Virus record (IMG/VR): IMGVR_UViG_3300033150_001155
Coordinates: 1-51,419 of that record
Strand: one strand, 5' to 3'
DNA from: a virus
Length of the DNA: 51,419 nucleotides
Below, one piece after another: positions 28,517-47,730 of the stretch. The position numbers were made by a program, and so were the translations under genes. The stretch's first letter is position 1; every line of letters begins with the position of its first letter. Under the pieces are notes generated by a model. It saw only the letters and a program-made list of their open reading frames with translations. It ran no database searches and was not told where the DNA came from.

Positions 28517-28518
28517 TA

Positions 28519-28728
28519 TTATTCTTCTGGAAGATATAAATCAAAATAAGCTTGATGGAGAATATGCTCAATTTGTATATATGATATGCCATCAAGATCA
28601 ATACTTTTAAGAAAAGACAGCATTAATTCATATAGAGGATGATCCCTTAATTCCTCAATTATTTTGCTATCTGTAGCAAATCCATGATTACCATAACCAT
28701 CTTCTTCAATTTTGTGATAAACATGCAT
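28519..28728 (-). CDS. Hypothetical protein in the glycan cassette (69 aa)
   Basis: A small acidic protein (MHVYHKIEEDGYGNHGF...) with helical C-terminal half. Lies between the tri-domain transferase and the sulfotransferase. No family recognised; may be an accessory of the cassette. Confidence 0.5.
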   Translation of the reverse strand: MHVYHKIEEDGYGNHGFATDSKIIEELRDHPLYELMLSFLKSIDLDGISYIQIEHILHQAYFDLYLPEE

Positions 28729-28751
28729 TGTAATCTCCTTAATTAAAATTT

Positions 28752-29462: not shown

Positions 29463-29463
29463 A

Positions 29464-29649
29464 TCACTTTTTATGTATTGATGGAATTGACTTTATCCAT
29501 ACTTTTTTATTCCAAGGCAATTTTAAAAATAAAATAAACCATTTATATTTTGTTCCAATCCATGCTCTATAAATTCCGATCCTCCAATTAAATAAATTAA
29601 AATCCATATACCTTTTTGTATGTATCGTTGCTTTTATATTGGCCATCAT
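29464..29649 (-). CDS. Small basic protein (61 aa)
   Basis: Start placed at the ATGATG that overlaps the preceding stop, with GGAGGG upstream. Rich in Trp, Lys, Ile and Phe (FNLFNWRIGIYRAWIG, FILFLKLPWNKKVW), so it may associate with the membrane. It ends one base before the sulfotransferase start on the map. No family recognised. Confidence 0.45.
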   Translation of the reverse strand: MMANIKATIHTKRYMDFNLFNWRIGIYRAWIGTKYKWFILFLKLPWNKKVWIKSIPSIHKK

Positions 29650-30920
29650 CCTGCCCTCCAAACGCTTGTCACCCGTGCACCCTTACCGTCGTTAAAATCT
29701 TTTCTCTCCCATCCTCTTGAATTGAGGCGGTCAATCCCCGTCTTGTAAAGCTCTTTCCGCTGCGAATCATCAAGGACGATAAGGCCACCCTTCCGTATAT
29801 GCTTTATAGCCGTATCAACAAAATCCTCTCTACCTTGAGTTTCCCCGTCAATGAGGATGATATCATATTTCCCATTGAGATCCCGAAGCCCCGCTTTCGG
29901 ATAATCAGGATCATATCTGAGGTCAATTCCATTCATGCCCGAAAGCTCAAGCTCATCTTTAACAATATTATACCAAACCTCATTAGATTCAAAGGAAGTA
30001 AGCAAAGGCGTTCGGGAGGCAAACCAGATTGTCGATGATCCCGCTCCGATCTCAAGTATGCGGGAATCACCATTAAGCCGTTCCTCCATCATTCGAATCG
30101 CTCCGCTTTCAATCCACGGAAGACCACCGTTCAACAACATCATGTCACGACACCGCATATAATCTCGGAAACGCATAGTCTGGTCAGCATGTCGTTTTGT
30201 GATCCCCAGTATCTCTTGTACCAGTGGCTGTTGATAGAGCTTTGCCTTCTCCTGCAAATATTCTTCAAGTTTATATCCATCCAATTCTTGTATTGTGTGC
30301 GCAGGGTCATTTTCGCGAAACCGCGTTCCATACCAATGATGATAGATTGTGGGTTGACCTTTGATATGGATTTCATCTCCCATCAATCCGTATTTCTTTG
30401 CCCCCTTCTCAAGACGATGAACCTTGTCGCCAAGCCTGATAATATCCCAGTATGCTTTTTGGGCCGTATCTGTCGAATGAGGCGGAACATGCTTGAATGA
30501 TATGCCGTTCTTGATGATAAATTCTTTCTCATAGAACATGAGCGGAGGGTGGAGCGGTTTATGCACTGGGCCGAGACAGCCGATAAGTTTAATTTTTGGA
30601 TCGCTGTTGTATATGTCAAATAAATCCTCCGCCCATCCCGGACGCATGATATGAGAATCAACGTCCAGAAAACAGACAAAGCGAGAGCCAGCCAACGCCG
30701 TCCCCGTATCCATTGCAGCCCCATGCCCCCGATTCTCTTTCACTTTGATGAGGTTCACATCATCCTGCGCCTCAAGCCATAGGAGATTGTTGAACAGCGA
30801 ACCGTTATCAACGACGGCGACCTCATAAGCCATTGTCGTGAATTTTCGTACAGAGCAGATGAGAAGCTTCGCCCATTCAGGCGAGTTTATAGAGGCCGTG
30901 ATGATAGTCAGGCTCGGCAT
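29646..30920 (-). CDS. GT2 glycosyltransferase fused to a class I methyltransferase
   Basis: A 424-residue protein. Residues 1-230 are a GT2 domain (SLTIITASINSPEW, FLDVDSH as the metal motif). Residues about 285-424 form a Rossmann methyltransferase domain (SRILEIGAGSSTIWF for SAM binding, YDIILIDGE, RKGGLIVLDDS). The combination would glycosylate and methylate the same glycan. It overlaps the upstream GT2 gene by 13 bases. Confidence 0.88.
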   Translation of the reverse strand: MPSLTIITASINSPEWAKLLICSVRKFTTMAYEVAVVDNGSLFNNLLWLEAQDDVNLIKVKENRGHGAAMDTGTALAGSRFVCFLDVDSHIMRPGWAEDLFDIYNSDPKIKLIGCLGPVHKPLHPPLMFYEKEFIIKNGISFKHVPPHSTDTAQKAYWDIIRLGDKVHRLEKGAKKYGLMGDEIHIKGQPTIYHHWYGTRFRENDPAHTIQELDGYKLEEYLQEKAKLYQQPLVQEILGITKRHADQTMRFRDYMRCRDMMLLNGGLPWIESGAIRMMEERLNGDSRILEIGAGSSTIWFASRTPLLTSFESNEVWYNIVKDELELSGMNGIDLRYDPDYPKAGLRDLNGKYDIILIDGETQGREDFVDTAIKHIRKGGLIVLDDSQRKELYKTGIDRLNSRGWERKDFNDGKGARVTSVWRAG

Positions 30921-31756
30921 CGCAATGCTCCTAAATGTGATTTGATCTCTGCAAATTTCTTGCGCGCTTGTTTGGAATCGTATCCGTCCCCTTCGGTATT
31001 TGCCAAGTTACCGACAATGGCACCATGACCGAAATGATGATATGCCATTCGAAGTTGCGAAGTAAGCCCAATGACCCGGTAATCTTTCGGATTATCATAT
31101 GTCACCTTGAGCCAGAGCTTAGCTCCGACGTCATTTGAAACGACATCCGACCTCCATCTTTTCCGGTCAATCCGTCCGGCATGTTCAAGCTCAAGAAAAT
31201 AAGAGTTTTTCTCTGGAGGCAAAAGATCGGCGAAAAGTGATCGATAGGGTTCATGGCTTGCATCTTCAACCGTATTCCGCCAGTCAATTATCATCCCGTC
31301 TTTATATGACCGCATGTCAAGAAATCCGAACCAAAAATGATAGATCGGCGTCCTGAATCCTTTCCAAGTATAGCCCTTCTGTTTTGTATCAACTATTGCC
31401 AGCAGATTCTTCTCTGATTCCGCAAGGGACACAAATGTAGATAACCATCCTTTTGTCCTGATGAATGTATCGCAGTCAAGGATTACCGCATAATCCGTAT
31501 GACAGAGATCGTTTACAAGAACGTTGAGAGACCCTCCGTGGGTAAGGGGAGGGCCATAATTTTCAACAAGAGTAAGCCAACCAGCCTCTTGTTTTGCCCT
31601 CAAATATTCAAGGTCAATCCCGTTTTTCGAACAGTCATCAAACACAATCATCTCATATGGATAATGAGTGAGATTCCGCACCGACTCGACGCAGAGTTGT
31701 ATCGCCTCATATGAATCGCGATTTGTGATGAGAATAGAGACTGTTTTCATCCTCAA
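30908..31756 (-). CDS. GT2 family glycosyltransferase
   Basis: A 282-residue protein. KTVSILITNRDSYEA opens the GT-A fold, EMIVFDDCS follows, and YAVILDCDTF carries the DXD metal motif. The C-terminal half is variable. ATGA overlap with the next GT2 gene upstream shows operon organisation. Sugar and acceptor unknown. Confidence 0.85.
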   Translation of the reverse strand: MRMKTVSILITNRDSYEAIQLCVESVRNLTHYPYEMIVFDDCSKNGIDLEYLRAKQEAGWLTLVENYGPPLTHGGSLNVLVNDLCHTDYAVILDCDTFIRTKGWLSTFVSLAESEKNLLAIVDTKQKGYTWKGFRTPIYHFWFGFLDMRSYKDGMIIDWRNTVEDASHEPYRSLFADLLPPEKNSYFLELEHAGRIDRKRWRSDVVSNDVGAKLWLKVTYDNPKDYRVIGLTSQLRMAYHHFGHGAIVGNLANTEGDGYDSKQARKKFAEIKSHLGALRCRA

Positions 31757-32469
31757 GCCCTCAGTTTATAGAGCTCCTCCCGAATAGCTGCCATTTTTTT
31801 CTCTCGGATAAGGATGGTGTTTTTCGCATCGTGTTCGTAATCGGGAGTCGCAATCACTGAAATATGCTCCCAATGTCGGAATTTACGTTTGACCGATTCT
31901 GGCACTGGAACAATCTTATCTTCAAGACCTTTCTCTTTGAGTTTGAGCCAAAATTCACCACCGACCGGGCAATAAACTTCTCTCCCCTCATATTCAATCC
32001 GCTTGTGTCGCCAGTCGCTTTTGAGTCTTTTCCGATATGCCGTCATGTTAAGACACATGAACCAGGATTGAAACCAGTCAGGAAGTGATGGTTGCGCAGA
32101 TCGATATCCTCGTTCAATACCGAATACTCCGATATTAGAGCCGAGAGCATCAACGGTCTCTGAAAGCCATCCGCCCTCAAGAATCTGCACATCATTGTCC
32201 ATTATCAGCGCAACGCTTGTCTTGCATGTGTCGAGGAGAACATTAATGGCATTCCCATGACCGAGTCGTTTTTCCCCTTCAATAAGATTGATCGCTCCCT
32301 TTGCCTTTGCCGATCGGAGATAATAGATATCCTCATCATTGTAGCTTCCGTCATCATAGACAGTTATTTTATATGACGGATATTCCGTGAAGCGGATAAT
32401 TGATTCAATACAGAGCTTTATCATCCCCCAGGCGTTAAAATTCGGAATCAGTATATTTACCTTTTTCAT
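31753..32469 (-). CDS. GT2 family glycosyltransferase
   Basis: A 238-residue protein with KVNILIPNFNAWG, KITVYDDGSYND and the DXD motif VALIMDNDVQ. Clearly homologous in outline to the GT2 genes on both sides, suggesting tandem duplication and divergence. ATGA-coupled. Confidence 0.85.
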   Translation of the reverse strand: MKKVNILIPNFNAWGMIKLCIESIIRFTEYPSYKITVYDDGSYNDEDIYYLRSAKAKGAINLIEGEKRLGHGNAINVLLDTCKTSVALIMDNDVQILEGGWLSETVDALGSNIGVFGIERGYRSAQPSLPDWFQSWFMCLNMTAYRKRLKSDWRHKRIEYEGREVYCPVGGEFWLKLKEKGLEDKIVPVPESVKRKFRHWEHISVIATPDYEHDAKNTILIREKKMAAIREELYKLRA

Positions 32470-33287
32470 TTTTCCTCCCTCAGCTTCAGAAGCCGGAGAC
32501 TGACTGCAGCTTTCGTCTGGATAACATATTCATGTTCCGGGCGATGGGCATTTCGGTCAAGTGAAAGGAATGTCTTGAATTGTCGCCATAAAAAATACTT
32601 CGGCATCTCAAGCATCCGAAGCCCGCTTGGATTTTCATACTCAAGCACTTCCCATAACCGCCATCCAGTATCAAGAAAAACCTGCACAGGTTCGGGGTCG
32701 GGATGCGCAGGAGGCGACATACCGTCAAATTGCTCTTTTCTCCAATATTCATCATAAGGAATGCGCCTTAGATCCCAGAGATCATCAGATGCTATTTTCG
32801 CATAGGCTTTCATGTTGAGAAGCATCCAGTTTGGGATCCACCGAGGCGCAGACCAGCAGTTTTGGAAGTGATTCTCGGCCTTTCTGAGGCGTGCGACTCC
32901 GAGATCGTTTTCATCATGGATCATTGCCATAAGGATCCGAAGCCACTGGCTATCAACGACCTCCGTCCCGGTTGACATCAGCATCGCAAAAGGTGCTCGG
33001 CACTGGCGCAAGAGCACCTTGATATTTTCTCCATGTCCATATTTCAATCGTCCGCTCGGCATTGTATCGGTTATGACGTTTTCAATAAGCTTTATTCGCC
33101 CCGCCTCGGCCATACCACGGAGATATTCAAGCCGATTTCCGTCCCCCTTGCCTTCGGAATTATCGCAAACCATCAGAGAAAAGGAAGGATAATCCGTTCG
33201 CTTAAGAATTGATTCTATAGTGAGGCATACAGCATCCCAGCTTGTTCTGTTCGGAAGAAGAATTTCAACGTGCTTTTTATCCAGCAT
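32466..33287 (-). CDS. GT2-like glycosyltransferase with degenerate metal motif
   Basis: A 273-residue protein from the ATG at 33287, chosen to avoid overlapping the acetyltransferase gene upstream. HVEILLPNRTSWDAV and LMVCDNSEG fit the GT2 fold, but the position of the DXD motif reads FAMLMSTGTEV, lacking both aspartates. It may be inactive, metal-independent or act as a partner. ATGA overlap with the next GT2 gene. Confidence 0.75.
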   Translation of the reverse strand: MLDKKHVEILLPNRTSWDAVCLTIESILKRTDYPSFSLMVCDNSEGKGDGNRLEYLRGMAEAGRIKLIENVITDTMPSGRLKYGHGENIKVLLRQCRAPFAMLMSTGTEVVDSQWLRILMAMIHDENDLGVARLRKAENHFQNCWSAPRWIPNWMLLNMKAYAKIASDDLWDLRRIPYDEYWRKEQFDGMSPPAHPDPEPVQVFLDTGWRLWEVLEYENPSGLRMLEMPKYFLWRQFKTFLSLDRNAHRPEHEYVIQTKAAVSLRLLKLREEK

Positions 33288-33291
33288 TTTG

Positions 33292-33837
33292 TCATTCCCG
33301 ATATTCATCCTTAAGTATTGACATCACAATATAATCTTTCCACCGACCATCGCGGAATACGGATTTTCGGAGCCTTCCTTCTTCATGAAATCCGATCCTC
33401 CGATAGAGTCTCAATGCAACCTCATTATCCTCAAGGACACAAAGCCAAAGGCGGTGCATATTCCAATGATCAAAACAGAATTTTAATAGTGCCCTAAATG
33501 CCCGTGTCCCCAAACCCTTCCCCCGCTTCTCGGGTACAATGTCCAACCCTACACGCACAGAACGATTATTCATATCAATCTGATCCATACGGATAAACCC
33601 GCAGAAATCGCCTTCAACTGAGATTGGAAAATCCTTCGTCTCCTCAACAATAGAAAAATATAAGCGCGTATGGTCATCAAGCAGACCTTCAAACCACCGT
33701 TCCTGTTGCCTCTCGTTTATTTGAGTGACATCTGTGAGATAAATCCATGTTGACGGATCGTTCCTGATGCATCGGATATGCTCAATATCCTCCCTCTCAA
33801 CGGGACGGAATCCAAGCCCATCATGCCAGAACATCAT
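33292..33837 (-). CDS. GNAT N-acetyltransferase
   Basis: A 181-residue protein from the ATGATG at 33837 (GGTGGAGG upstream). GLGFRPVEREDIEHI opens the fold, KRGKGLGTRAF is the acetyl-CoA pyrophosphate loop, and LRLYRRIGFHEEGRLR is the C-terminal motif of RimJ/RimL/PseH-like enzymes. Beside a sugar aminotransferase it probably N-acetylates an amino sugar. The order aminotransferase then acetyltransferase supports this. Confidence 0.88.
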   Translation of the reverse strand: MMFWHDGLGFRPVEREDIEHIRCIRNDPSTWIYLTDVTQINERQQERWFEGLLDDHTRLYFSIVEETKDFPISVEGDFCGFIRMDQIDMNNRSVRVGLDIVPEKRGKGLGTRAFRALLKFCFDHWNMHRLWLCVLEDNEVALRLYRRIGFHEEGRLRKSVFRDGRWKDYIVMSILKDEYRE

Positions 33838-34930
33838 ATGCCTCCACCGCATTCATGATCTCTTCTCTCTCTTCTTCACCGACCCACCATCCGACAGGAA
33901 TCGCTACCTGATGCTCGTTGAAATAATCAACACCTTTCAGGCCGTCTGTCCTGAACCGACCGAAACAGGAATGAGTATCGTTCCTTTCGTGTACTCGACT
34001 TGTATGAATCTTCCTGTCCGCCATGAATTTTATGAACCTCTCCCGATCATCGACAATGACCACAAAAAGCCAATATGACGAAAACCGATCATCATCGTAT
34101 AATAAGGGCTTGACTCTCCGTCCCGCCCGATTTGACATTTCGCTGAAATAGAACCGTGCATTATCCCTATGCTTCTTGATCACTCCTTCAACGTGCGCCA
34201 TCTGCTCAATCCCGATCGTTGCCGTCACGTCGTTCATGTGATATTTCCATCCAGCCTCAGCGATGTTTTCAGCACATCGCACCTCGCGCGTTTTGAGTCG
34301 GTCGATACCATACCACCGAAGTAGTCGTCCCCGTTCAAAATCGTCCCTTCGCCTCATGCAAAGTGCTCCACCGTCAACGGTCGTTAATTGCTTGATTGCT
34401 TGGAATGAAAACATTGTGAGGTCTGCGAGTGTACCGACCTTTCGGCTTTTATATTCCGCGCCGAAAGAATGCGCAGCGTCCTCGATCAAAGTAAGATTGT
34501 ATTCCTTGCATAATGCGATAAGCCTATCATAATCGCAAGGATAACCTCCATAATCGACACAAACGATGGCTTTTGTTTTCGGTGTAATCTTCCGTTCAAC
34601 ATCCTCGGGGTCAATATTCCCGTCCTCTGGATTTATATCCGCCCAGACGATTTGGGCACCTGAATGAAGAATCGGCATATTCGTTGCCGTGCAGGTCATC
34701 GGTGTTGAAATCACTTCACAACCTTCTCCGATATCCTCAAGCCTCAGTGCCAGATGAAGTCCTGCCGTACCATTCACAAGAGTCAAGCAGTATTCACACC
34801 CGATGTATTCTTTCAGCATATCCTCAAATTTATCAACCTTTATACCTTGACCGATCCATCCAGAGTGGAGCGTTTCAAGCAATGGCTTATCTACTGACTC
34901 TGGCATGTAAGGTTTGAAAAGCGGTATCAT
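33821..34930 (-). CDS. DegT/DnrJ/EryC1-type PLP sugar aminotransferase
   Basis: A 369-residue protein of normal family length. MIPLFKPYMP, LVNGTAGLHLAL, EDAAHSFGAEYKSRKVG (Asp151 near the PLP ring) and FSFQAIKQLTTVDGGAL with Lys180 as the Schiff-base lysine are all present. It converts a keto sugar nucleotide to an amino sugar. No dehydratase or epimerase to make the keto sugar is seen in this window, so the substrate must come from the host. Confidence 0.92.
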   Translation of the reverse strand: MIPLFKPYMPESVDKPLLETLHSGWIGQGIKVDKFEDMLKEYIGCEYCLTLVNGTAGLHLALRLEDIGEGCEVISTPMTCTATNMPILHSGAQIVWADINPEDGNIDPEDVERKITPKTKAIVCVDYGGYPCDYDRLIALCKEYNLTLIEDAAHSFGAEYKSRKVGTLADLTMFSFQAIKQLTTVDGGALCMRRRDDFERGRLLRWYGIDRLKTREVRCAENIAEAGWKYHMNDVTATIGIEQMAHVEGVIKKHRDNARFYFSEMSNRAGRRVKPLLYDDDRFSSYWLFVVIVDDRERFIKFMADRKIHTSRVHERNDTHSCFGRFRTDGLKGVDYFNEHQVAIPVGWWVGEEEREEIMNAVEAYDVLA

Positions 34931-37030: not shown

Positions 37031-38074
37031 TCAGCTATTTTGTGTCAACATTACAAACGGCGAAAGCGTATTTGCCCCGCGTTTCGGAGTGATTGGTGCC
37101 GAGAGAGTCGGCTGCCCATCAACCCTGAGTACAATGCGCCAGAACGTCTCGTCTGTGAGAAACCCAGAAGAGCCCGGCACGTGCCGTGATCCTGCAATTT
37201 CAAGGCTTCTGTCCGCAATGACATAATGACGCCAATCCGCAAGAATAAGGTCTCCCTTTGCATCAATTGCTGAACAATGCTCTGTCGGTATAATCGGTGC
37301 CCCGAAACAAGTCCTGTTTGAGAGATCAAGAAATGTAGCCTGATTAGCTGCTGATGCGCTTGCCTCAAAAATCTCATCCAGTGCATCGGGATTGATGAGC
37401 CAAACGGCATTCTTCCATGAGGCAGGAAGTAGACGTTTCGCCATATGCGCAAAATCCGTCCAATCAATCAAATTGTTCGCAGCCCGGGAAACCGTTATTT
37501 CAGCCCCGCTATTTACAATACCGATCGGCATCCCACCGCCTGTCCCCTGGATATAGGCGTCATCCTCAATGAAGGCGAGAGCCTTCCCGAATGACTGAGC
37601 GATGAATTCTGAAAAAGCCCCGTAGTCATCCTCAAGCTCATTCGATGCATAGCATGTGCCGACAAGTTTATGTGGCGTCAATTCAAGCTCGCCCACTTCC
37701 GGGTCTGAGATGTTTGATGACTTGTCACCACGCTCCGCCGTCCATGTGAACGTAATGCCACCATAGATGTTTGACGATCTGTCGGTATCAACAAGGGTAC
37801 GAATTTTGAGCGAATCGCGAGTTACGGGAAAAACACGCGCCCGAGGACGAACGATTGCACCCTCCAGAGCTGCAGCTTCGAATATTCCATCCGCCCACTG
37901 CTCTGGCACAAGAAATCCGCCCTGTGCGTCCACGGAAGTTTCCATCCTCCCCGCAGTCTTTGCAGAGATGAGACGGGAATCCGGAGTCCCTTCCCCATCA
38001 CAGGCTTTTCGGACTTTCACACAGAACTCACCCAGAGATTTGAACCCGCCGTCCTTTGTCTTATACTTCTCCAT
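37031..38074 (-). CDS. Second HK97-fold major capsid protein (short form, 347 aa)
   Basis: Shares the blocks DAQGGFLVPE, DSLKI, FTWTAERGDKS, LELTPHKLVGTCYASNEL and LTDETFWRIVLRV with the protein at 39775-41094, so the two are paralogs. The N-terminal scaffold-like region of the other is replaced by only about 45 residues. HK97-fold capsomer protein. Its start overlaps the upstream GT4 gene by 14 bases. Possibly a minor or vertex subunit; which one dominates in the virion is unknown. Confidence 0.85.
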   Translation of the reverse strand: MEKYKTKDGGFKSLGEFCVKVRKACDGEGTPDSRLISAKTAGRMETSVDAQGGFLVPEQWADGIFEAAALEGAIVRPRARVFPVTRDSLKIRTLVDTDRSSNIYGGITFTWTAERGDKSSNISDPEVGELELTPHKLVGTCYASNELEDDYGAFSEFIAQSFGKALAFIEDDAYIQGTGGGMPIGIVNSGAEITVSRAANNLIDWTDFAHMAKRLLPASWKNAVWLINPDALDEIFEASASAANQATFLDLSNRTCFGAPIIPTEHCSAIDAKGDLILADWRHYVIADRSLEIAGSRHVPGSSGFLTDETFWRIVLRVDGQPTLSAPITPKRGANTLSPFVMLTQNS

Positions 38075-39227
38075 TGTCCTTCTCCTGTTTTTTAAGATTT
38101 TCTTCCAATTTATTAATTATCGGGACGAAGTATGTCTTCCATACATTATCCCAGTCGTAATCAATAACCTCCTCCCTAATCTCTCTTCGATCATATCCGT
38201 CATCATGGAAATCGGCATAAAATGATTGTAAGGATTCTAATATCTCCTGTTCCTTACATTCATATCGCCACGTTCCATTTGGTATCCACCGAAGCTCATT
38301 ATCATCGACGTGAATTAGTCGGCCTGTTCGACAGAGCTCTCTTCCTGTAGTCGTATCGGTTACGATGACAGGAGTCCCGCACGCCTGAGCTTCAATAATC
38401 GGGAGGCCGAATCCTTCGCCCCTAGTCGGGAGACACATTACGTCCATCCCGTTATATATGTCGGCCAAATCACCTTCTGTATAGCGCGAGAAATGGTAAT
38501 CCATCTGCAATGGCCAGCCGACGACATTTCCGAGGCCGAGGCTGTTTACAACATCAATATAATTAATACAATTACTTCTGACTCCTCGCTCATTTGCCAA
38601 CGAATGGATAAAGAGCCGGGATTCCTTATGTTCCTGATTGAATTTTTTGAATGCCCTCAATAATGGGATAAAACCCTTTCTGTCATCGGCGTAGTTCATG
38701 CCGACGGTTCCGATGACAAAAGTATCATCTCCCCAATTCATGCTCTCCCTGAAGGCCTTCCGTCCCTTTGGCTTTATCCTGAATGTTTTTGTGTCTATGC
38801 CATGTGGAGCATACCACGGATTGAGCCCAATACTCTTGAGCTCCCTCTCTCCATGCCGAGAATAGGCAATAGGAAAGCCGACTTTTTCTGCGATCCTTTT
38901 CAGCACCGTGCTTATCCATTCGGTATCAACTGGAATCATCGCGACCCATTTCTCTTTCGGTGGGAGTCGCTTCCCGTCCAATACCCAAATATCAAACAGT
39001 GACCAGATATAGTCGAATTCCTCATCAACCAACATCTTGTTTACATAATACATATCGGTGCCGTCGTAAATTTCAAATCCTTCCCATTCGTACCTTGTAT
39101 GATCCATATGCTTTGTGATGACACGTACGAAATGCCCAACGTCTCTCAGCCGTACAATAAGCTCCCGAGTCACATTCCCATAACCGGATCGTGCAAGTGG
39201 CGAAGCTGAATGCCATAATATTCTCAT
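38061..39227 (-). CDS. GT4-type glycosyltransferase between the capsid genes
   Basis: A 388-residue GT-B fold enzyme. MRILWHSASPLARSGYGNV opens the N-domain, GTVGMNYADDRKG begins the C-domain, and EGFGLPIIEAQACGTPVI is the nucleotide-sugar-binding E-x7-E motif of GT4 enzymes. Its position between two capsid paralogs, overlapping one, suggests that it glycosylates capsid proteins. A terminator-like hairpin separates it from the gene upstream, so it may have separate control. Confidence 0.85.
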   Translation of the reverse strand: MRILWHSASPLARSGYGNVTRELIVRLRDVGHFVRVITKHMDHTRYEWEGFEIYDGTDMYYVNKMLVDEEFDYIWSLFDIWVLDGKRLPPKEKWVAMIPVDTEWISTVLKRIAEKVGFPIAYSRHGERELKSIGLNPWYAPHGIDTKTFRIKPKGRKAFRESMNWGDDTFVIGTVGMNYADDRKGFIPLLRAFKKFNQEHKESRLFIHSLANERGVRSNCINYIDVVNSLGLGNVVGWPLQMDYHFSRYTEGDLADIYNGMDVMCLPTRGEGFGLPIIEAQACGTPVIVTDTTTGRELCRTGRLIHVDDNELRWIPNGTWRYECKEQEILESLQSFYADFHDDGYDRREIREEVIDYDWDNVWKTYFVPIINKLEENLKKQEKDNGEV

Positions 39228-39239
39228 TTTCTCCCCCTT

Positions 39240-39297
39240 AAAAACGAGGCGTCGGGGTAAAGGAGGGAGAATGACACTCGCTTCACCCCTAGCCTCG
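39240..39297 (-). terminator. Rho-independent terminator between decoration-like gene and GT4
   Basis: On the minus strand CGAGGC-TA-GGGGT pairs with ACCCC-GAC-GCCTCG around a 26-base loop (39245-39297), followed by five T residues (39244-39240). It would cut the transcript after the first capsid and decoration-like genes, raising their abundance relative to the GT4, second capsid and connector genes. The large loop makes it weaker than ideal. Confidence 0.6.
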
Positions 39298-39324
39298 CCT
39301 TCATTTCACATTCCTACACGAACA

Positions 39325-39762
39325 TCACGAAGGCAACGTTGCCTGTTTATAACGTCCGCGCATCTGCTCCATGACAAGTCCGACAACCTCTGTTCCGCTC
39401 GCATCGTCGGTAGACACCCGTCCCGCTACATAGCGGAAACCACTTGCAACATCAAGTTCCTGACCCCTCACCTGACATGTCAGGATATCGGTGTCGGTCG
39501 TATTCGTCGATGTAAAAGTGTCTGAAGCACCGCTGACGGTTTTCGACCCGCCTCCGCTCGTATCGGTAGCCTGCCAGATGGCAAGCGTGATGACTGAATC
39601 AGAAGCCAGATCAGAAGCTACACATTTTGCAACAACGAGATCGTAATTAGCCATGTCGAGCCATGAGGATGTGATACGATCGTTTGACTCTCCACCCAAA
39701 GCGGTTGATATCCCGCCGTAGGTAGATCGTACAACCTGACTCTCTTTGTGTATGTTAGCCAT
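39325..39762 (-). CDS. Putative capsid decoration-type structural protein (145 aa)
   Basis: A beta-rich, Ser/Thr/Ala-rich protein without cysteine clusters (MANIHKESQVVRSTYGG, RYVAGRVSTDDASG). It follows the main capsid gene after 12 bases, the usual place of a decoration or head-fibre protein. Its composition fits an exposed structural protein. Family not recognised with certainty. Confidence 0.6.
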   Translation of the reverse strand: MANIHKESQVVRSTYGGISTALGGESNDRITSSWLDMANYDLVVAKCVASDLASDSVITLAIWQATDTSGGGSKTVSGASDTFTSTNTTDTDILTCQVRGQELDVASGFRYVAGRVSTDDASGTEVVGLVMEQMRGRYKQATLPS

Positions 39763-39774
39763 TTTATTCCTCCA

Positions 39775-41094
39775 TCAGCTTGTAGTTGCCGCGAGTGCGA
39801 CGAACGGGGAGATAGCCGTGACCGGAGCTGCCGAATTCTTGAGCGTGATTGCACTCTGAGGCCAGCACTGTCCGCCGACCCGCAGAACGAACCGCCAACA
39901 TGTCTCATCGGTGGTGAAAGCCACATGAGTTGACACGTCGATGGTGATCGGCTGTCTGTCGAAAATAATGTAATACTTAAGATCGACATAGCAGATATCG
40001 CCCTGTGAGCCGAGTGCCGGGAGTTTCTCCGACACAAACAATGGCCGTCCGAAAATCCGCATCGGAACCTTATCGGCTCCGCCCATGTTCGGGTTAATAT
40101 TGATGACGTTCGCTCCTGTTCCTGGTGCAGCGTCGCCGGTCTGCATCCCGATCAGATCGGGAAGTACGCTGTTATTGCAGATCCAAATAGCAGACGCATG
40201 AGATGACGGAAGCATGTTCGCATACATCTCCCGAAGGTCTTCCCAAACCACTCTGTTCACCGTATTCCGGTATGGAGGACGGAGAGCATTGGAGGTCAGA
40301 AATCCCATCGGTTGCCCGGCACCCGTTCCGTTGATAAAAGCATCGTCCTCAAACCATCCCCATGCCGAACCAAACATTGACCGGATTAGGGGCGCAAGGG
40401 CGATCGCGGAATCATCGAGCAATTCATTTGAAGTGTAGGTTATCCCCGCAAGTTTATGCGGAGTGATCTCCAGTTGCCCGAACGAGGGTTTCGTTGCGCT
40501 CTTCGTTCCACGCTCCGCCGTCCACTTTGCCTGCACACCACCAAAAACGGTAGAGGAATGAGACGTATCTTGGACGGTCGGGATCTTCAACGAATCTGTC
40601 TTCAGCGGGCCGATGACGGTCGCTCCGTTCGGCCTCACAACTGCATTCTCAAGTGCGATTTTTTGAAGGTCTGCTCTGTAGACTTCCGGCACGAGGAACC
40701 CGCCCTGGGCGTCCGTGCTAATCTCCATGTGTCCTGCTGTCTTCGTGATCTCGCCCGTGTCTTTGACGAATGTCAGCCTGTTGTCAATTTCTCCATTCTT
40801 CCGGAACTTCCGAATCGCAGTCAGGAAATCACCGAATGGAACGTTTTTCCAGTCCTTCTCGGCTTCTTTCTTGGCTGCCTCCAATTCTTCGTCTTTTGCA
40901 GTTTCAGCCTCAACTTTTTTCAGCGTGTCTTTCATCTGCTCTGCCAGAGCGTCTTTGGTATATTCGCCGAGCGTGGACTTGACATCCTCAAGAATGCCGT
41001 CCATCTTCTCGCGCAACGCAGTCTCGGTCTTTTCAGCCACAAGTGCCTCAATCTCGCTTTCTTTCATGGTCACTTTTTCTTTTTCATCTTCCAT
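39775..41094 (-). CDS. HK97-type major capsid protein (long form, 439 aa)
   Basis: Residues 1-120 are charged and helical (EIEALVAEKTETALREKM..., KDEELEAAKKEAEK), like the delta/scaffold domain of HK97 gp5. From about residue 128 the capsid fold begins (STDAQGGFLVPE, DSLKIPTVQDTS, QLEITPHKLAG, FTTDETCWRFVLRV). It is likely cleaved by the upstream protease. The 174 bases between it and the preceding gene hold no gene I can support. A paralog lies at 37031-38074. Confidence 0.92.
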   Translation of the reverse strand: MEDEKEKVTMKESEIEALVAEKTETALREKMDGILEDVKSTLGEYTKDALAEQMKDTLKKVEAETAKDEELEAAKKEAEKDWKNVPFGDFLTAIRKFRKNGEIDNRLTFVKDTGEITKTAGHMEISTDAQGGFLVPEVYRADLQKIALENAVVRPNGATVIGPLKTDSLKIPTVQDTSHSSTVFGGVQAKWTAERGTKSATKPSFGQLEITPHKLAGITYTSNELLDDSAIALAPLIRSMFGSAWGWFEDDAFINGTGAGQPMGFLTSNALRPPYRNTVNRVVWEDLREMYANMLPSSHASAIWICNNSVLPDLIGMQTGDAAPGTGANVININPNMGGADKVPMRIFGRPLFVSEKLPALGSQGDICYVDLKYYIIFDRQPITIDVSTHVAFTTDETCWRFVLRVGGQCWPQSAITLKNSAAPVTAISPFVALAATTS

Positions 41095-41268: not shown

Positions 41269-41706
41269 TCAAACGCTTAATCGTGCGCTTATAAACCTTT
41301 GATTTATCGCCTGGAGATTCTCTTGATACCAGGCTCGAAATTTGTCAGGCTTAACTTTCAACTTACTTGATATCTCGATTATCGTATGCCCTGCCCTGAG
41401 GAGTTTCACGACCTTATTGATATCAACATTCGGTAATTTCTCTGAATGACTCTTAATAGGCCATCGTTTCTTTGCATCCTTCAGAATTTTCTCTGTCTTT
41501 CCGGCATTCGTCGTCATGAGTTTCGTCATCTCCCCGTTCCGGGCGTTCACCCACTCTCTGAGACGCTGTTCATTGACGTTCATCTCATAGGCAACCTTGT
41601 CTATCGGCCATCCGAGACTCCCGCGCAGATAATGCCAGCGAACCCAATTCTCAAGCGATTCAATCATTGAAAAATCTTTTGCCATCTCCCTTTTTGCCTC
41701 CATCAT
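41269..41706 (-). CDS. Double helix-turn-helix protein between protease and capsid genes
   Basis: A 145-residue protein with two helix-turn-helix-like segments, WPIDKVAYEMNVNEQRLREW and AGHTIIEISSKLKVKPDKFR, similar to those of small terminases. ATGA-coupled to the protease gene. A DNA-binding protein in the head operon between protease and capsid is unusual; it might regulate late transcription or take part in packaging. No family assigned. Confidence 0.55.
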   Translation of the reverse strand: MMEAKREMAKDFSMIESLENWVRWHYLRGSLGWPIDKVAYEMNVNEQRLREWVNARNGEMTKLMTTNAGKTEKILKDAKKRWPIKSHSEKLPNVDINKVVKLLRAGHTIIEISSKLKVKPDKFRAWYQENLQAINQRFISARLSV

Positions 41707-44570
41707 ACTTTTCCTCGCAGATATCCTATAGCATCAGCGATACCATCTCGCGTCGCTTTCTCCAAGAGTTTTTTCATGTCAATCGATCTGAGCTTCCCGT
41801 CAATCGCTTCCTCAATACGTGCAGTAATATCTTTGTCTCCATCGGTTTTGTCAAGCTCTATCATATAGGCGCGCTCTCCGCTGGCCTCTTCTTCCTGCTG
41901 TCGATCCGTCTCTTCCAAGAGTTTTTCAAGTTTCGGTATTGCGGCCTTCATCCCGGCAACGGCGTCCTCAATAATCCCGCGCGTCTTTGCCGATAGTACG
42001 CGTCCTTCTTTCAGCTCAGTTATTGACTCCCGAAGTAGCGTAATCTCTTCTTTCAGATCAGCGTGGTCATCCGACTCATATTCCCGTCCCGGGCCCGGAC
42101 GCCCGACACGCCTCATCTCCCCACCACATTCTGGGCAACTTATTTCATTGCAGTGCTTGTCAGTTGTCATCTTGTATCCACACTCAATACATTCACATTC
42201 GTATTCTTTCCTCTCTCTCTTCGCTATCGCAATTTCCTTATCAATCTTGACTTCAACCTCTCCGTTTATCCATTTGACTCTATTCCATATTGATTTAGCC
42301 CCAGTTTTGTTTCCTCGGATCTCTTCAATCAATTCGCGTTGCTCAATTAATTTATCAAGGCTCTTTAATAACGCCTCGCCGATATTAATCTCATCCTCAT
42401 CGGCAATAATGGAAGCAAACTCAACAAGCTCTTTCATATGAGCCCCAGAAAAACCAGCCGTCTTTTCTGCGATATCATCAAGAAGGGATTCCTCAATTTT
42501 ACCCGCCCAGAGTTCAATCATTTTTTTCCGCTGCAATTTGCTTGGTAATCGATAATTGATTATATGATGAAATCTGCCTGGCCTATCTAAAAGCGCATCC
42601 GGTAATTTTTCTGGATAATTCGATGTCATGATCGTTAATATCCCCTTATTTTGCCTGAGCCCGTCCATTTCTGTTTTCAGAAGATCAACCACAACAGAAT
42701 CTCGATCATTATATTCTTTCAGCCATGTATCGATATCCTCAATAAACAAGACGGTCGGGGCCAAATCCCGTGCCAATGAATAACCCAACGTAATTGCTCT
42801 TAGTGCGCCAATATGCCTAAAATCTCTACTTGATATCCATATGAAGGTAGTATCCATATTGGTCATTAAAATTCGACCGGTTTTTGTTTTCCCCGTACCC
42901 GGAGGGCCGATGAAAAGTAGCCCCCGCCCTAACATTCCGTTCCTTTTTTCCTCTAATGCATCAGAAGATTTTCTCAAGGCATCTTTATATTTCTCCTCAA
43001 GAATAAGCGTATCCCATCCCTCTTTTTTCTCAGTCAAGAAATCGCCAGCTAATGCAAACTTCTCCCCACGGAGATAATTATTTTCATTCACCCATTTGTG
43101 GACTTCTTCAAAAAGTCTCTTATTCCAATCTTTGTAATCAAGAGAAGTTATAAAAGATACGGATATCCCATCCCACGTTGGCTCATATTTGACAATTAAC
43201 GGCTTGCCCTCGGCATCATAAAAATTCAATCCGCTGATTAGAAAATCATCAGATTCTTTTGAATTTAATTTAATAATCTCATATTGTGGCGGAATTTCAG
43301 CCCCGCTCCAATAAAAATTTCTTGTATCTTTTAATTTGAATTTCCCTAGAGTCTTTTTAAGCCCTGCCAAATAAGTCCCCATAAGTGGACTCGGAATGTC
43401 GAAATTATTCTTGAATACTTTTTTGACCTTACATTCCAAATATTGCTCAAACAAATCAAACTCAAACGGCTTTGGAATTGGCGATTCCGCAGATTCAATA
43501 TCAAAGAGTTTTGACAACGACTTGTTCCATCTTTCTTTTTGTTTCGGTTCTTTAAATCCTAACTTACTAAATTCTTTATGAGACTCAACCCATGCTTGCG
43601 CTTCCTCCATTGTCCATTTTTCTTTATCAAATAGATATTTCTGGATATGCGTCGGTCCGTTCGGATCACTTTTCAACTTTCCAATTACGGCTTTAATCCC
43701 CTTCTCTTTGGAAATATCAATAGTCCTGAATGATGTTTTCACAAAATCGCCTTTGTCTCTGATGGGTATATGGTGGTAATTATCGGTAGTTTCTGGTTTC
43801 GTGATCTTCTTTTCCTCTGCCGTTTTCGTCTTTTTGCCTTCGCTCTCTTTTGTTTTTTCTTCATCGTCCTCCTCGGATTTCTCAAGTGAAAGTATAATTT
43901 CGCGGTCGACAACTTCCCGTTCTTTTTTCCATTCAATCTCCAAATCTTTCTTTAATCGGCCTTCGGGAAGTAGCCCTTTCTCAATCGCCAACGTCAACGC
44001 TTCAGGACATGAAGGAATAGGAACCACAGAATATTCAAGCAACTCCCATTCCGTATATATCCGCTTTGGCATATCCTTGTCCTCGGCCTCTTTGCCTTCC
44101 TTTATCTCTGGTTCCTCCCATTTCTTCGGGATGAACCCGACAGACCAGCCCTTGAGAAGAGGCCCCGTTCCTCCAACATCCTCCGTGCAGGCTTGATAAA
44201 CCTGATCAGCCCATTCGTTCTTTGCGAATATCGTCTTTGCTATCAGCCCCTTTTCGTCCGGCTTAATCCAAGCGCAATTCCCGATCGGGAGACTTCGATA
44301 ATCATGACCATAAAGCACTTTTGGATTCTTCGTATAATTCGACAGAATTACTCCCTCTGGCAAGAGCACTTCATCATCCCTGTCTTTCGTATTCGTTGAA
44401 ATGTACGAAATCACAGCCCGCTCTTTCGCGACCGTTTCCTGTTTTTCGGCAACGTATGATTTTCGGACAAACGGGATTTCATCCTTCTTGATCTTTAACC
44501 GCCGTGCAAGAGCCCCGGCCTTATCCGGAAACACATCAACATATTTTAAATTTTCAGTCATGATATTCAT
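41703..44570 (-). CDS. Prohead protease fused to AAA+ ATPase, zinc ribbon and coiled coil
   Basis: A 955-residue protein. Residues 1-200 are an HK97-type prohead protease with GHD (His89), GWSVGF (Ser143) and ELLEYSVVPIP (Glu179) as the candidate catalytic site. Residues about 265-335 hold a segment with HHIPIRDKGDF and EKWTMEEAQAWVE seen in some phage head-protease proteins. Residues 365-730 are an AAA+ ATPase: Walker A GPPGTGKT (555-562), Walker B VLFIEDID (607-614), sensor 1 SN (650-651), Arg finger DRPGRF (662-667). Then comes a zinc ribbon CIEC/CPEC (794-797, 812-815) and a coiled-coil C-terminus. The protease normally comprises about 200-250 residues alone, so this is a striking fusion. 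It may drive scaffold or delta-domain removal, or prohead maturation, with ATP. Confidence 0.9.
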   Translation of the reverse strand: MNIMTENLKYVDVFPDKAGALARRLKIKKDEIPFVRKSYVAEKQETVAKERAVISYISTNTKDRDDEVLLPEGVILSNYTKNPKVLYGHDYRSLPIGNCAWIKPDEKGLIAKTIFAKNEWADQVYQACTEDVGGTGPLLKGWSVGFIPKKWEEPEIKEGKEAEDKDMPKRIYTEWELLEYSVVPIPSCPEALTLAIEKGLLPEGRLKKDLEIEWKKEREVVDREIILSLEKSEEDDEEKTKESEGKKTKTAEEKKITKPETTDNYHHIPIRDKGDFVKTSFRTIDISKEKGIKAVIGKLKSDPNGPTHIQKYLFDKEKWTMEEAQAWVESHKEFSKLGFKEPKQKERWNKSLSKLFDIESAESPIPKPFEFDLFEQYLECKVKKVFKNNFDIPSPLMGTYLAGLKKTLGKFKLKDTRNFYWSGAEIPPQYEIIKLNSKESDDFLISGLNFYDAEGKPLIVKYEPTWDGISVSFITSLDYKDWNKRLFEEVHKWVNENNYLRGEKFALAGDFLTEKKEGWDTLILEEKYKDALRKSSDALEEKRNGMLGRGLLFIGPPGTGKTKTGRILMTNMDTTFIWISSRDFRHIGALRAITLGYSLARDLAPTVLFIEDIDTWLKEYNDRDSVVVDLLKTEMDGLRQNKGILTIMTSNYPEKLPDALLDRPGRFHHIINYRLPSKLQRKKMIELWAGKIEESLLDDIAEKTAGFSGAHMKELVEFASIIADEDEINIGEALLKSLDKLIEQRELIEEIRGNKTGAKSIWNRVKWINGEVEVKIDKEIAIAKRERKEYECECIECGYKMTTDKHCNEISCPECGGEMRRVGRPGPGREYESDDHADLKEEITLLRESITELKEGRVLSAKTRGIIEDAVAGMKAAIPKLEKLLEETDRQQEEEASGERAYMIELDKTDGDKDITARIEEAIDGKLRSIDMKKLLEKATRDGIADAIGYLRGKV

Positions 44571-44582
44571 CTTATTCCTCCG

Positions 44583-46307
44583 TTATTCCTCTGTTATCGG
44601 TAATATATGACATCGACAATTACTTGAAATTACTCCATTGCTGATGTATAATGAAGATTGCGTATGTAGATCGTAAACATAACCATGAAAAGAATCAATC
44701 TTGATATCGACAATCTTCTTCGTCTTTATGAAAGCGGGGAGTCCGAGAAGGCACTCGCCGAAAGGTTTAACATTGCTCGCGGTTCTATTCGTCTTCGCTT
44801 GCTCGAGAATGGGGTCAAACCCAGAAATAGAAGCGAGGCTATGTTCACCAGAATGAGCAAGACGTCGAAGGAAGAACGGATGCGGTTGACGGGAGCCGCC
44901 CACGCTGCTGTCCGCGGCAAACGCCAAAGCCTCGAATATCGCTGTAAGATTGCTAAAACGAGAGAGATCAAACAAATTGGTATCGGTCGCGGAGAAATTA
45001 TGCTCGCGGAGAAATTGAGTAAATGCGGTTTTTCCTGTATCCAACAAAAAGCCATCGGCCCCTATAATATCGATGTAGCCATCACAAAACCGCCCATCGC
45101 CGTGGAGCTGTTCGGCGGAAACTGGCACGCGTTTGGCAACCATGCCAGGTGCTTTCGCAAACGAACTGATTATATCCTCAATTCTGGCTGGGCCGTTATT
45201 ATTATTTGGGTTACCAGGAATTATCCCCTTGAGCGAGGAGCAATAGAATATATCGTCTCCTTTGCGGAGAAGTTGAGCCGAGGCGAAACCGTTGGGAGTA
45301 AGGAGCATATGATTCGGGGTGACGGTAAGAGGACTACCCTCGGAAAAAGAAAGCTCAATAATCTTCCCCCTATAGAAGGCCCTCAGCCCCGCGATCGTAT
45401 TACCGGCCGTTTCACATCTCGTCCCTGGCAATAAACATCTAGCATGTAAAGGTGGGGATTCTATATCTGTATAATTAACTTTCAGGCTCAATTCTTTTCC
45501 CTCGCGCTCAACCGTAAACTCATCCCCCATAGAAAAGAACTTTTCCTCAATTCCTATTGTCTTGCCATCTAAATCTTCGCAAAAAGGACAGGTACGAGAA
45601 TCCCAAAACGTAGCCCAGGTGAGATGTGTCACTACTCCACTTTGCCTATAGGCTGCCAGAGCCCCCTGATTTGAAGCTCTCAGCGTCTCTGTTCTTGCAA
45701 TCATCTCAGACCGTGCTTTGTTCCAATTATCATATGTCATATTGACACGCTTTGTAAGCTCTGGGATCCCCTCCCCGGCCTCAATCCCGGCCTTTAGTTG
45801 CCGGCGTAGCTTTTCAATATTAACGCCCTCCATTGACTCTGACAAATGGAGCGGATATGTATCAAGCCATTTCTGGACATGAGGATTCCCCATATCAAAC
45901 GCTATATCAAGCTCTGCAAACTCAATAGCTCCATCTGCATTTTTCTCCATTATCTCAGCCATCAATGTCTTAAACAATGCATTGAATTCATCAACAAACT
46001 TCTTTTTCGGATATAACAGCTCATCGGTTTTATCTTTCGTTCGCCATGCCTTTTTTGTCTTTTTTATATTCGCTATGATGATTCGCCGTTCCTTCTCCCA
46101 TACCTTGATGATGCTTCGGCGCATCCGACGTTCAAACGGAAGATTCAATCGCTCAAGCAAAGCAAATATCGCCGGGTTCCTTTTCCGTGAAACCTCGGTA
46201 ATAACCGCATCCAACAGCGCATCTTTCAAATGTCGTTCAACATGTTCATGACAACATTCGCAGAGTGTATCATAAGCTATCTGCTCGGCAATGATCTGTT
46301 TATCCAT
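44583..46307 (-). CDS. MuF/SPP1 gp7-like minor head protein interrupted by an intein
   Basis: A 574-residue precursor. The N-extein (residues 1-290) is a head morphogenesis protein: ARTETLRASNQGAL, WDSRTCPFCEDLDGK and the MuF-domain end SPPLHAR. The intein covers residues 291-563. The C-extein is only 11 residues (CRCHILPITEE). Splicing restores PPLHAR-CRCHILP, the conserved PPLHxxCRC motif. The mature protein would be 301 residues. It overlaps the portal gene by eight bases, as is usual for MuF genes. Confidence 0.93.
   Translation of the reverse strand: MDKQIIAEQIAYDTLCECCHEHVERHLKDALLDAVITEVSRKRNPAIFALLERLNLPFERRMRRSIIKVWEKERRIIIANIKKTKKAWRTKDKTDELLYPKKKFVDEFNALFKTLMAEIMEKNADGAIEFAELDIAFDMGNPHVQKWLDTYPLHLSESMEGVNIEKLRRQLKAGIEAGEGIPELTKRVNMTYDNWNKARSEMIARTETLRASNQGALAAYRQSGVVTHLTWATFWDSRTCPFCEDLDGKTIGIEEKFFSMGDEFTVEREGKELSLKVNYTDIESPPLHARCLLPGTRCETAGNTIAGLRAFYRGKIIELSFSEGSPLTVTPNHMLLTPNGFASAQLLRKGDDIFYCSSLKGIIPGNPNNNNGPARIEDIISSFAKAPGMVAKRVPVSAEQLHGDGRFCDGYIDIIGADGFLLDTGKTAFTQFLREHNFSATDTNLFDLSRFSNLTAIFEALAFAADSSVGGSRQPHPFFLRRLAHSGEHSLASISGFDPILEQAKTNRTASNVKPFGECLLGLPAFIKTKKIVDIKIDSFHGYVYDLHTQSSLYISNGVISSNCRCHILPITEE
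44624..44652 (+). promoter_or_regulatory. Sigma70 promoter for the antisense endonuclease, inside the intein
   Basis: TTGAAA (44624-44629), exactly 17 bases, then a perfect TATAAT (44647-44652). The predicted start lies near 44659 and the endonuclease ATG is at 44685, giving a 5' leader of about 25 bases without a clear Shine-Dalgarno site. The promoter DNA also encodes the block F-G residues SSLYISNGVISS of the intein. It stands alone on the plus strand among minus-strand late genes. Confidence 0.75.
44685..45434 (+). CDS. Vsr-like homing endonuclease, antisense and nested in the MuF intein
   Basis: A 249-residue protein. An N-terminal helix-turn-helix (GESEKALAERFNIARGSIRL) is followed by a Vsr/PD-(D/E)XK-type nuclease domain: IGRGEIMLAEKL, YNIDVAITKPPIAVELFGG, NWHAF and SGWAVIIIWVT, with Asp, Glu and His expected at the metal site. 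This fits the Vsr-like homing endonuclease family known beside split inteins. The gene lies wholly within the intein on the opposite strand, and its TAA stop is the complement of intein codon 2. It contains no TTA, CTA or TCA codon (0 of 19 Leu, 0 of 14 Ser), which keeps the intein frame open. An upstream in-frame stop at 44667 fixes the ATG. Confidence 0.88.
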   Translation: MKRINLDIDNLLRLYESGESEKALAERFNIARGSIRLRLLENGVKPRNRSEAMFTRMSKTSKEERMRLTGAAHAAVRGKRQSLEYRCKIAKTREIKQIGIGRGEIMLAEKLSKCGFSCIQQKAIGPYNIDVAITKPPIAVELFGGNWHAFGNHARCFRKRTDYILNSGWAVIIIWVTRNYPLERGAIEYIVSFAEKLSRGETVGSKEHMIRGDGKRTTLGKRKLNNLPPIEGPQPRDRITGRFTSRPWQ

Positions 46308-47730
46308 TTATCATTTCCCTCAATGCTTGTTTAGCTAGCAGTGCGATCTGACGTGCCTCCTCTTCGGTCGGTTTTATCGGAGCAACCGAACCTATCGGAG
46401 CCATCGTCATAGGAAGTATCGGCACTGCCCCCCATTCGCTCTCGTCGCGTCCTTCAATCTTGCGCTCCTCATTTATTGATGAAAATCCGGTCTTGAGATT
46501 AGTCTCTTTTTCCTTGAGCTTAAATTCTTTGTCCTCCGGGACGGGGGAATCAAAAGCCACAAACAGCCGTTTCTTCCCGCTTGAGAATCGGGAGATAATT
46601 TTCTCATTCACCTTTTCTTGTAATCGTTGGAGCATCGGGTCTATACCGTATTTTGCAAACGTGAATTGTGCTCCCTCGACATTTGCCCTATTTGCCGTCG
46701 GGTCGAAAAGCGCAGCCGGGACGCCATATGCAGCGCATATCTCCTCTCGGTTCAACACTCGCCCTTTCGTATAGCTGAGCTCTTCAGGCGTCATCGTATC
46801 TCTAATATATTCCATCTCTCTTGTAGTGAGCATTGTCCGTCCGGCCTTCTTTGCCCCGGCGAATTTATCGGCAAATTGCTGTTCAAGACGGTCAAAGTCC
46901 TGCCGACTGATATTTCCCTTCGGCACGATAAGCCCCCCGGGACGAGCCCGGTTTACGAAAAGCGCACTTTCAAACTCATTCATCTGCCGTGCGATAAATA
47001 CGGCATACGCTATCCCACGGGTTGTCGCATAACCGGAGAAAGGATTCTGAGGATTCGGATATTCGAAAAATACAATCTCCTCCGGGCTGAACTTTACCTC
47101 TACGCTTCCCCGCTTGTATCGATAACCGATAATCGCCTCATCAAGCGTCCTTCCGAATATCGGATTCATGAACTGTGCCGGAATGACCCATATCTCCTGT
47201 GGAACACCAAGAGAATTTAGTGGCGTGTACCAATACGCCTCGCCAGTAAGGTCAAGAAACATTGAGGTTGATTCCCAGAGATCGCGTCGCGTTGCGAAAG
47301 GATTGACTTTCGTCACAAGGTCAAGAAACACATGCTCGGTTATCTCCTCAATATCCTCGGCCTTACAAACGATTCTCTCAAGCCCGGCGTTCGCCCGGAT
47401 CAGCGCAAGGGTCTCCCGGTCAACACGCTTCGTCTTTGTCTTTACGGGTGCCGATCGCTCCTCTTTAGCGACATACATCCGCATCTTTACGTTTGCGACA
47501 GCCTCCGCCTTCCGCTTCACGCAGGTATAAACCCAACCTTCAAACGAATCTGCGAACTGACTTTTTGTCCTCGGCCTGCTATCCCCGAGGAGTCCTTCGC
47601 CCCAAAACTCGGCGTCAATAAATGCCGTATCATCTCCGATACTCGGCCTCTGCCCAGTTGTTGAGAAAGCATCCTCAAGGCCTCGCCTATAAAGCCCCTT
47701 CTGTCGGCCTATCCACTCAAATATATTCAT
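46300..47730 (-). CDS. HK97-type portal protein
   Basis: A 476-residue portal protein. FADSFEGWVYTCVKRKAEAVANV opens the fold, GEAYWYTPLNSLGVP and LNREEICAAYGVPAALFDP are typical portal motifs, and a charged C-terminus follows. It forms the dodecameric ring for DNA entry and docks the terminase. Order large terminase, portal, MuF is standard. Overlaps the MuF start by eight bases. Confidence 0.9.
   Translation of the reverse strand: MNIFEWIGRQKGLYRRGLEDAFSTTGQRPSIGDDTAFIDAEFWGEGLLGDSRPRTKSQFADSFEGWVYTCVKRKAEAVANVKMRMYVAKEERSAPVKTKTKRVDRETLALIRANAGLERIVCKAEDIEEITEHVFLDLVTKVNPFATRRDLWESTSMFLDLTGEAYWYTPLNSLGVPQEIWVIPAQFMNPIFGRTLDEAIIGYRYKRGSVEVKFSPEEIVFFEYPNPQNPFSGYATTRGIAYAVFIARQMNEFESALFVNRARPGGLIVPKGNISRQDFDRLEQQFADKFAGAKKAGRTMLTTREMEYIRDTMTPEELSYTKGRVLNREEICAAYGVPAALFDPTANRANVEGAQFTFAKYGIDPMLQRLQEKVNEKIISRFSSGKKRLFVAFDSPVPEDKEFKLKEKETNLKTGFSSINEERKIEGRDESEWGAVPILPMTMAPIGSVAPIKPTEEEARQIALLAKQALREMING

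Follow-up and report, generated by a model that had tools for sequence, protein, structure and literature searches.

Tandem HK97-fold capsid paralogs with a scaffold-poor second copy in environmental tailed viruses: a candidate vertex subunit

Most HK97-type phages build hexamers and pentamers from one capsid protein, T4 from two, and the reason has long been debated as a matter of capsid geometry. The subject here is IMG/VR virus record IMGVR_UViG_3300033150_001155, a linear record of 51419 bases that was analyzed at its full length and is referred to below as the window. Its minus strand carries two capsid genes, one long and one short, with two further genes between them (protein lengths in amino acids, aa):

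39775..41094, minus strand: long capsid protein, 439 aa, HK97 fold (PF05065, PHROG 10, tree, Foldseek), with an N-terminal Delta/scaffold-like coiled coil at about residues 1-80 and the block shared with the short protein from K118
39325..39762, minus strand: predicted decoration-like protein, 145 aa, of a subtype with a Ser/Thr-rich loop and proposed as acceptor of the neighboring glycosyltransferase (position after the capsid genes, association of subtype and glycosyltransferase)
38061..39227, minus strand: family-4 glycosyltransferase (GT4), 388 aa (Glyco_trans_1_4, E 3.1e-15; PHROG 2170; homologs in the capsid clusters of relatives)
37031..38074, minus strand: short capsid paralog, 347 aa, HK97 fold (PF05065, 40% identity to the long protein, clade support 100/100), most of the Delta domain gone, shared block from K39; proposed vertex (penton) subunit (propeptide comparison)

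What the second capsid protein does is the question pursued here. With a probability of roughly 0.55, sequence comparison and analogy point to a two-paralog shell, in which the long protein would be the hexamer subunit with its own scaffold domain and the short protein would occupy the vertices.

That both genes encode HK97-fold capsid proteins, as a first-pass annotation of this DNA had claimed, is borne out by several lines of evidence. Both open reading frames (ORFs) are present on the minus strand and match Pfam family Phage_capsid, PF05065, with E 4.7e-44 (long) and 1.8e-33 (short), the scores of 151.3 and 116.6 bits lying far above the cut-off of 24.2; both also match PHROG 10, major head protein. 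Aligned with each other over 369 columns, they share 40% identity (E 8e-72), including every sequence block that the annotation had quoted, and Foldseek searches with AlphaFold2 models, albeit weak ones, returned HK97-fold capsids as top PDB matches (E 3.6e-09 for the long and 5.5e-06 for the short protein). The annotation was likewise right in ascribing a scaffold-like N-terminus to the longer protein only, where an extra N-terminal coiled-coil stretch is seen, and in placing a GT4 gene between the two, which overlaps the shorter gene by 14 bases. It had overlooked the separate 145-aa gene between the long capsid gene and the GT4 gene.

The pair is no local oddity: it belongs to a conserved family of environmental tailed viruses of microbes. 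Viral contigs were scanned with either protein or with alignments of the short (A1) and long (A2) forms, using BLAST and profile models over all ORFs; for the alignment scans, the best 80 of 91 and the best 80 of 111 confirmed places were considered. Deduplication on the last 200 residues left 69 distinct long-type proteins, 63 of them with at least 1.2 kilobases (kb) of sequence downstream. A second capsid copy follows in 54 of these 63, as the survey of relatives proposed in the first-pass annotation was meant to establish, and conversely a capsid copy precedes each of the 53 distinct short-type proteins for which 400 bp or more of upstream sequence are available. The nine long-type proteins without a downstream partner are L129-L133, L135-L137 and L049; the contig of the last stops 1.8 kb past the long gene, and its sister L048 has the short gene at 2.3 kb. 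In most loci, the gap between long and short gene measures a few bases to some tens, and the short gene has a good ribosome-binding site in many of them. Genes intervene only in the window, in L048 and in a group of identical or near-identical contigs (L011, L012, L046, L047, L073 and L113). Since the commonest order in relatives is long gene, short gene, 145-aa gene and, in some, GT4, the intervening genes of the window reflect a local rearrangement. At one locus (L014, 207-1519), the long gene is split into two overlapping frames, by a sequencing error or a real frameshift.

Among sequenced isolates the picture is different. Four capsid queries against INPHARED found one place per record in 71/71, 301/301, 37/37 and 48/48 matched records; none had two places, and hence no isolate carrying the long-short pair was found among them. 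This fits the earlier remark that a second capsid gene is uncommon in small HK97-like phages. Five plasmid records matched, and the three whose regions were viewed contain one capsid gene each. Two contigs with a pair are binned with cellular genomes. One, L062, is a 6.6-kb contig assigned to Candidatus Aminicenantes, possibly through a binning error, and among 297 genomes of that phylum no further one had two matches. The other, L064, is binned as Rhodobacteraceae, and the 295 genomes of its family contained no genome with two matches besides its own.

The two forms are old. In a careful tree of 63 rows, in which the program flagged long branches among the outgroups, 29 short forms fall into one clade (100/100) on a long stem and 28 long forms into another (96/98), the two being sisters (86/80). 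A quick tree of 115 rows, which remained of 141 after near-identical rows were dropped, again gives a single short clade (99), to which the second copy of L128 is sister (96). The trees thus trace long and short proteins to one old duplication within the pair-bearing family, the root of which is less sure because the L128 pair is divergent and the long clade has a support of 91; in a tree built from the core alone, the long rows did not resolve as a single clade. In the quick tree, the single-copy relatives L129-L133 are placed within the long clade (91), so that the short copy was likely lost in this side branch.

A separate pair is formed by the viral contig L140 and by L064, whose four capsid rows constitute one clade of their own (100/99). 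If their second copies are constrained to the short clade, the log-likelihood drops by 110, and a single origin of all pairs is rejected by the approximately unbiased (AU) test (p-AU 8.3e-42). Their second copy, too, is shortened at its N-terminus (440 versus 376 aa in L140; 122 versus 53 residues before the shared block). This seems to represent a second, independent duplication with a like truncation in another lineage, while a complete gene conversion of the whole core could mimic such an independent origin.

Which part of the protein was given up may point toward the function of the short form. Most of the N-terminal coiled coil is absent from it, yet it begins in the same helix as the long form (consensus FKSFGEFL..VR) and retains the block KTAGHMEIGDDSQGGFLVPE. 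Across 48 deduplicated pairs in which both genes are long enough, this block is recognizable in both partners in 41; in the remaining seven, one partner or both have a diverged block. Counted from the first start codon, the K-T-A-G-H block is preceded by 83-140 residues (median 116) in the 41 long proteins and by 30-53 (median 36) in their short partners. Misannotated starts offer no explanation, since in 41/41 pairs the long protein has more residues before the block than its short partner could have even if read from stop to stop. Between the consensus sequences of the two forms, the block KTAGHM..LVPE is 95% identical, the putative E-loop 32% and the A domain, in which one loop is about ten residues longer in the long form, 41%, with domain borders assigned from the models and known HK97 anatomy. 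Two traits by which a vertex protein may be recognized are hence apparent: a conserved adjacent paralog of the major capsid protein (54/63, with one clade for each form) and a putative propeptide shortened relative to that protein (all 41 of the 48 examined pairs that have the block in both).

Both copies also appear to be maintained by selection. In the 16 closest of 351 locus pairs, the ratio of nonsynonymous to synonymous substitution rates (dN/dS) is about 0.04-0.20 for the short gene, which accordingly evolves under purifying selection, and 0.07-0.15 for the long gene, except for one uninformative pair (0.40, dS only 0.02). Over all 351 pairs, the nonsynonymous differences of long and short genes correlate with r 0.83 at a median ratio of 1.06. 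The decay of one copy in relatives, which the first-pass annotation had named as speaking against its proposal, was not found, though the loss in L129-L133 is likely. The single short clade, the low dN/dS and the widespread pairing together rule out a recent or decaying duplicate.

Codon usage bears on abundance. The WWC fraction is 0.56 in long, 0.50 in short and 0.44 in other genes (n=49 loci), while the share of ATA among Ile codons amounts to 0.11 (long) and 0.23 (short) and that of GGA+GGG among Gly codons to 0.42 and 0.49 (n=51 loci each); the p-values attached to such comparisons are overstated because the loci are related. These codon signs lean towards a short protein that is less abundant than the long one, as expected of a vertex subunit.

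A shell of two paralogs could work as follows. The long protein would be the main hexamer subunit and assemble around its own Delta/scaffold domains. The short protein, the product of the following gene and deprived of most of the Delta domain, would join at the pentameric vertices, its most likely place by sequence and by analogy, where the same start of the N-arm and the same peripheral-domain motifs could let it lock into the lattice. Subsequently, the S78 protease encoded upstream as part of a protease-ATPase (41703..44570), the presumed maturation protease of both capsid proteins, may trim the two at the shared K-T-A-G-H block. The short protein would accordingly be part of the virion. 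Of the roles that the first-pass annotation had suggested for it, that of a vertex or minor subunit is thereby favored by an ancient and conserved paralog, constraint on both copies, a short propeptide like that of T4 gp24 and a weaker codon bias; the placement at the vertices itself is what we infer.

Several observations weigh against this assignment. L129-L133 keep a single capsid gene, so that the lattice can dispense with the second copy; these relatives also offer a natural experiment on what the short copy is needed for. A change of capsomer geometry is expected to show in the A domain. The 21 positions that are fixed differently between the two forms are scattered, with 6/21 in the A domain, and hence do not single out capsomer geometry. 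The share of AGA+AGG among Arg codons shows no difference between long and short genes (p 0.61, 51 loci). With a mean predicted local distance difference test (pLDDT) score of 53 and 52, the AlphaFold2 models are too poor for mapping interfaces. Finally, a second capsid paralog that stays unincorporated is reported for rudiviruses, whose capsid proteins fold differently (PMC10848311).

The alternative that survives best, which we nevertheless regard as unlikely, is a co-subunit of the lattice that mixes into the hexamers or sets the size or shape of the capsid by its ratio to the long protein. It would fit the N-arm block and the peripheral-domain motifs, which are common to both forms and almost unchanged, the position of the short gene directly after the long one with its frequently good ribosome-binding site, and a codon bias of the short gene above that of other genes. 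However, the codon signs suggest that the short protein is expressed less than the long one; it would dilute the scaffold, having almost no Delta domain to contribute, and relatives with a single copy exist.

Less probable still is a protein that is not stably part of the shell, that is, an assembly or maturation factor or a decoy. The rudivirus paralogs, as reported in PMC10848311, provide a precedent, and the apparent loss of the short copy in L129-L133 would fit. Yet, the short form conserves its lattice-contact motifs no less strongly than the long one, and the same architecture appears to have arisen from two independent origins. We consider it very improbable that the short protein is a special subunit fitting the five-fold shell to the portal at the portal vertex: this would account for a distinct gene and for the low copy number suggested by the codon signs, but no sequence feature pointing to the portal was found, and what is conserved are the motifs of the general lattice.

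The surface-variant subunit glycosylated by the adjacent GT4, to which the 14-base overlap in the window had lent some appeal and which the first-pass annotation had also considered, can practically be dismissed, since GT4 follows the decoration-like gene and the short capsid gene occurs with or without it. Homologs of the decoration-like protein stand after the capsid pair in relatives. For loci with at least 1.5 kb after this gene, GT4 was sought within 3 kb, and the loci were divided into near and far at 38% identity to the decoration-like protein of the window, a line drawn after seeing the data. GT4 is present in 25/25 near and 0/30 far loci (Fisher p 3e-16); among nine loci left out for want of room, all five near ones have GT4 and the four far ones have none. 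A tree of 55 decoration-like proteins, which required 1 kb of room and made no use of the 38% line, groups the 25 GT4 carriers without exception in a single clade (98/95), equivalent to one change of the trait. On a tree of 45 short capsid proteins, by contrast, the trait switches 10 times, and at least 7 of these changes are forced by well-supported branches. GT4 as a partner of the short capsid is ruled out on these grounds.

Hence, decoration-like gene and GT4 move together while the capsids stay, and the two genes behave in these trees as one swappable cassette under a conserved shell. The near subtype contains a Ser/Thr-rich loop (SGASDTFTSTNTTDTD in the window) that is largely missing from the far subtype in the alignment and is a plausible GT4 acceptor. 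The GT4 that intervenes in the window would therefore pair with the decoration-like protein and probably glycosylate it. The role of the latter is predicted from gene position alone: it corresponds to PHROG 28483, of unknown function, and yielded no PDB match and no credible Pfam match. Such a repeatedly exchanged cassette offers a testable case of glycan-coat switching in phages. The head-tail region of the window also contains a run of glycan genes on the minus strand (26081-34930), encoding a three-domain GT2 protein (811 aa), a sulfotransferase-like protein (below cut-off), a GT2 plus methyltransferase, two more GT2 proteins, a GNAT acetyltransferase and a DegT aminotransferase. These genes at 26-35 kb fit a glycosylated virion and could also serve other ends.

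Taken together, the broader proposal would be that two-component HK97-type shells, consisting of a scaffold-bearing subunit and a scaffold-less vertex paralog, arose at least twice independently outside the T4-like phages and were complemented by a swappable decoration-glycosyltransferase cassette that changes the glycan coat on an unaltered shell. We advance it tentatively and at somewhat less than even odds.

The surroundings of the capsid genes are those of a compact head block. Upstream of them lie, in this order, the genes for terminase large subunit, portal, head-morphogenesis protein and protease-ATPase and a second 145-aa gene; head-tail connectors, found by the PHROG search, and the tape-measure gene follow downstream:

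47744-48967: terminase large subunit, upstream of the capsid genes
46300-47730: portal, upstream of the capsid genes
44583-46307, minus strand: head-morphogenesis protein, Phage_Mu_F (PHROG match)
41703..44570, minus strand: prohead protease (Peptidase_S78) fused to an AAA+ ATPase, 955 aa (PF04586, 3.2e-06; PF00004, 2.9e-21)
21737-24400: tape-measure gene, further downstream of the capsid genes

The protease-ATPase additionally matches PHROG 80, head maturation protease (3.5e-22), and has a zinc-ribbon-like stretch; full-length relatives occur in L067 (1014 aa) and L089 (1017 aa), with shorter or partial matches elsewhere. An intein-like splicing domain interrupts the head-morphogenesis protein, and on the opposite strand inside this insert (44685-45434, plus strand) lies a 249-aa ORF with a weak REase_MTES_1575 match and a resolvase helix-turn-helix; it may be a homing endonuclease encoded in antisense. 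The 145-aa protein between protease and long capsid gene (41269-41706, minus strand) belongs to no known family and has matches in nine of the relatives examined and none in the PHROG search.

How, then, does this pair compare with known systems? HK97-type systems such as HK97, T5 and RcGTA use one capsid gene for hexamers and pentamers. The window shares their fold and the gene order portal, protease, capsid, and it differs from them in possessing two capsid genes. T4 is the closer parallel. Its vertex gene lies directly downstream of the major capsid gene. According to PMC9958956, 65 residues are cleaved from gp23 and 10 from the vertex protein gp24, which probably arose by duplication of gp23. 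Judged by this account, both systems comprise two HK97-fold paralogs that stem from a duplication, the second with a far shorter propeptide. Unlike T4, the window encodes the scaffold-like domain within the long protein and combines a compact head block with a tape-measure gene in a 51-kb record. The sequence family of the T4 capsid proteins was unmatched, PF05065 being the sole Pfam family for either protein at E 0.001; the parallel thus supports a likeness in working, not membership.

A diverged paralog of the major capsid protein is also known from the phiCbK-like siphophage Colossus, as gene 36 beside gene 81 (PMC3556154). It is situated about 21 kb away, unlike the neighboring copy of the window, and is reported there for Colossus alone; a putative vertex band of phiCbK was identified as its major capsid protein. 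Concerning the cassette, phage glycosyltransferases and glycans on capsid proteins are described for the mycobacteriophages Che8 and Rita, as told in PMC11256854, whereas the window ties one GT4 to one decoration-like subtype beside the capsid genes.

T4 thus exemplifies a division of labor between capsid paralogs, and Colossus a capsid paralog at a distance. No tandem HK97 pair with a scaffold-poor second copy was found in the literature, a search that left subscription papers mostly uncovered, so that absence from print is unproven. What stands out here is such a tandem pair, conserved in a family and evolved, as it seems, twice. Dozens of natural pairs, nested single-copy relatives and a second origin provide a comparative system for what a vertex subunit needs and for whether the scaffold domain is dispensable at the vertices.

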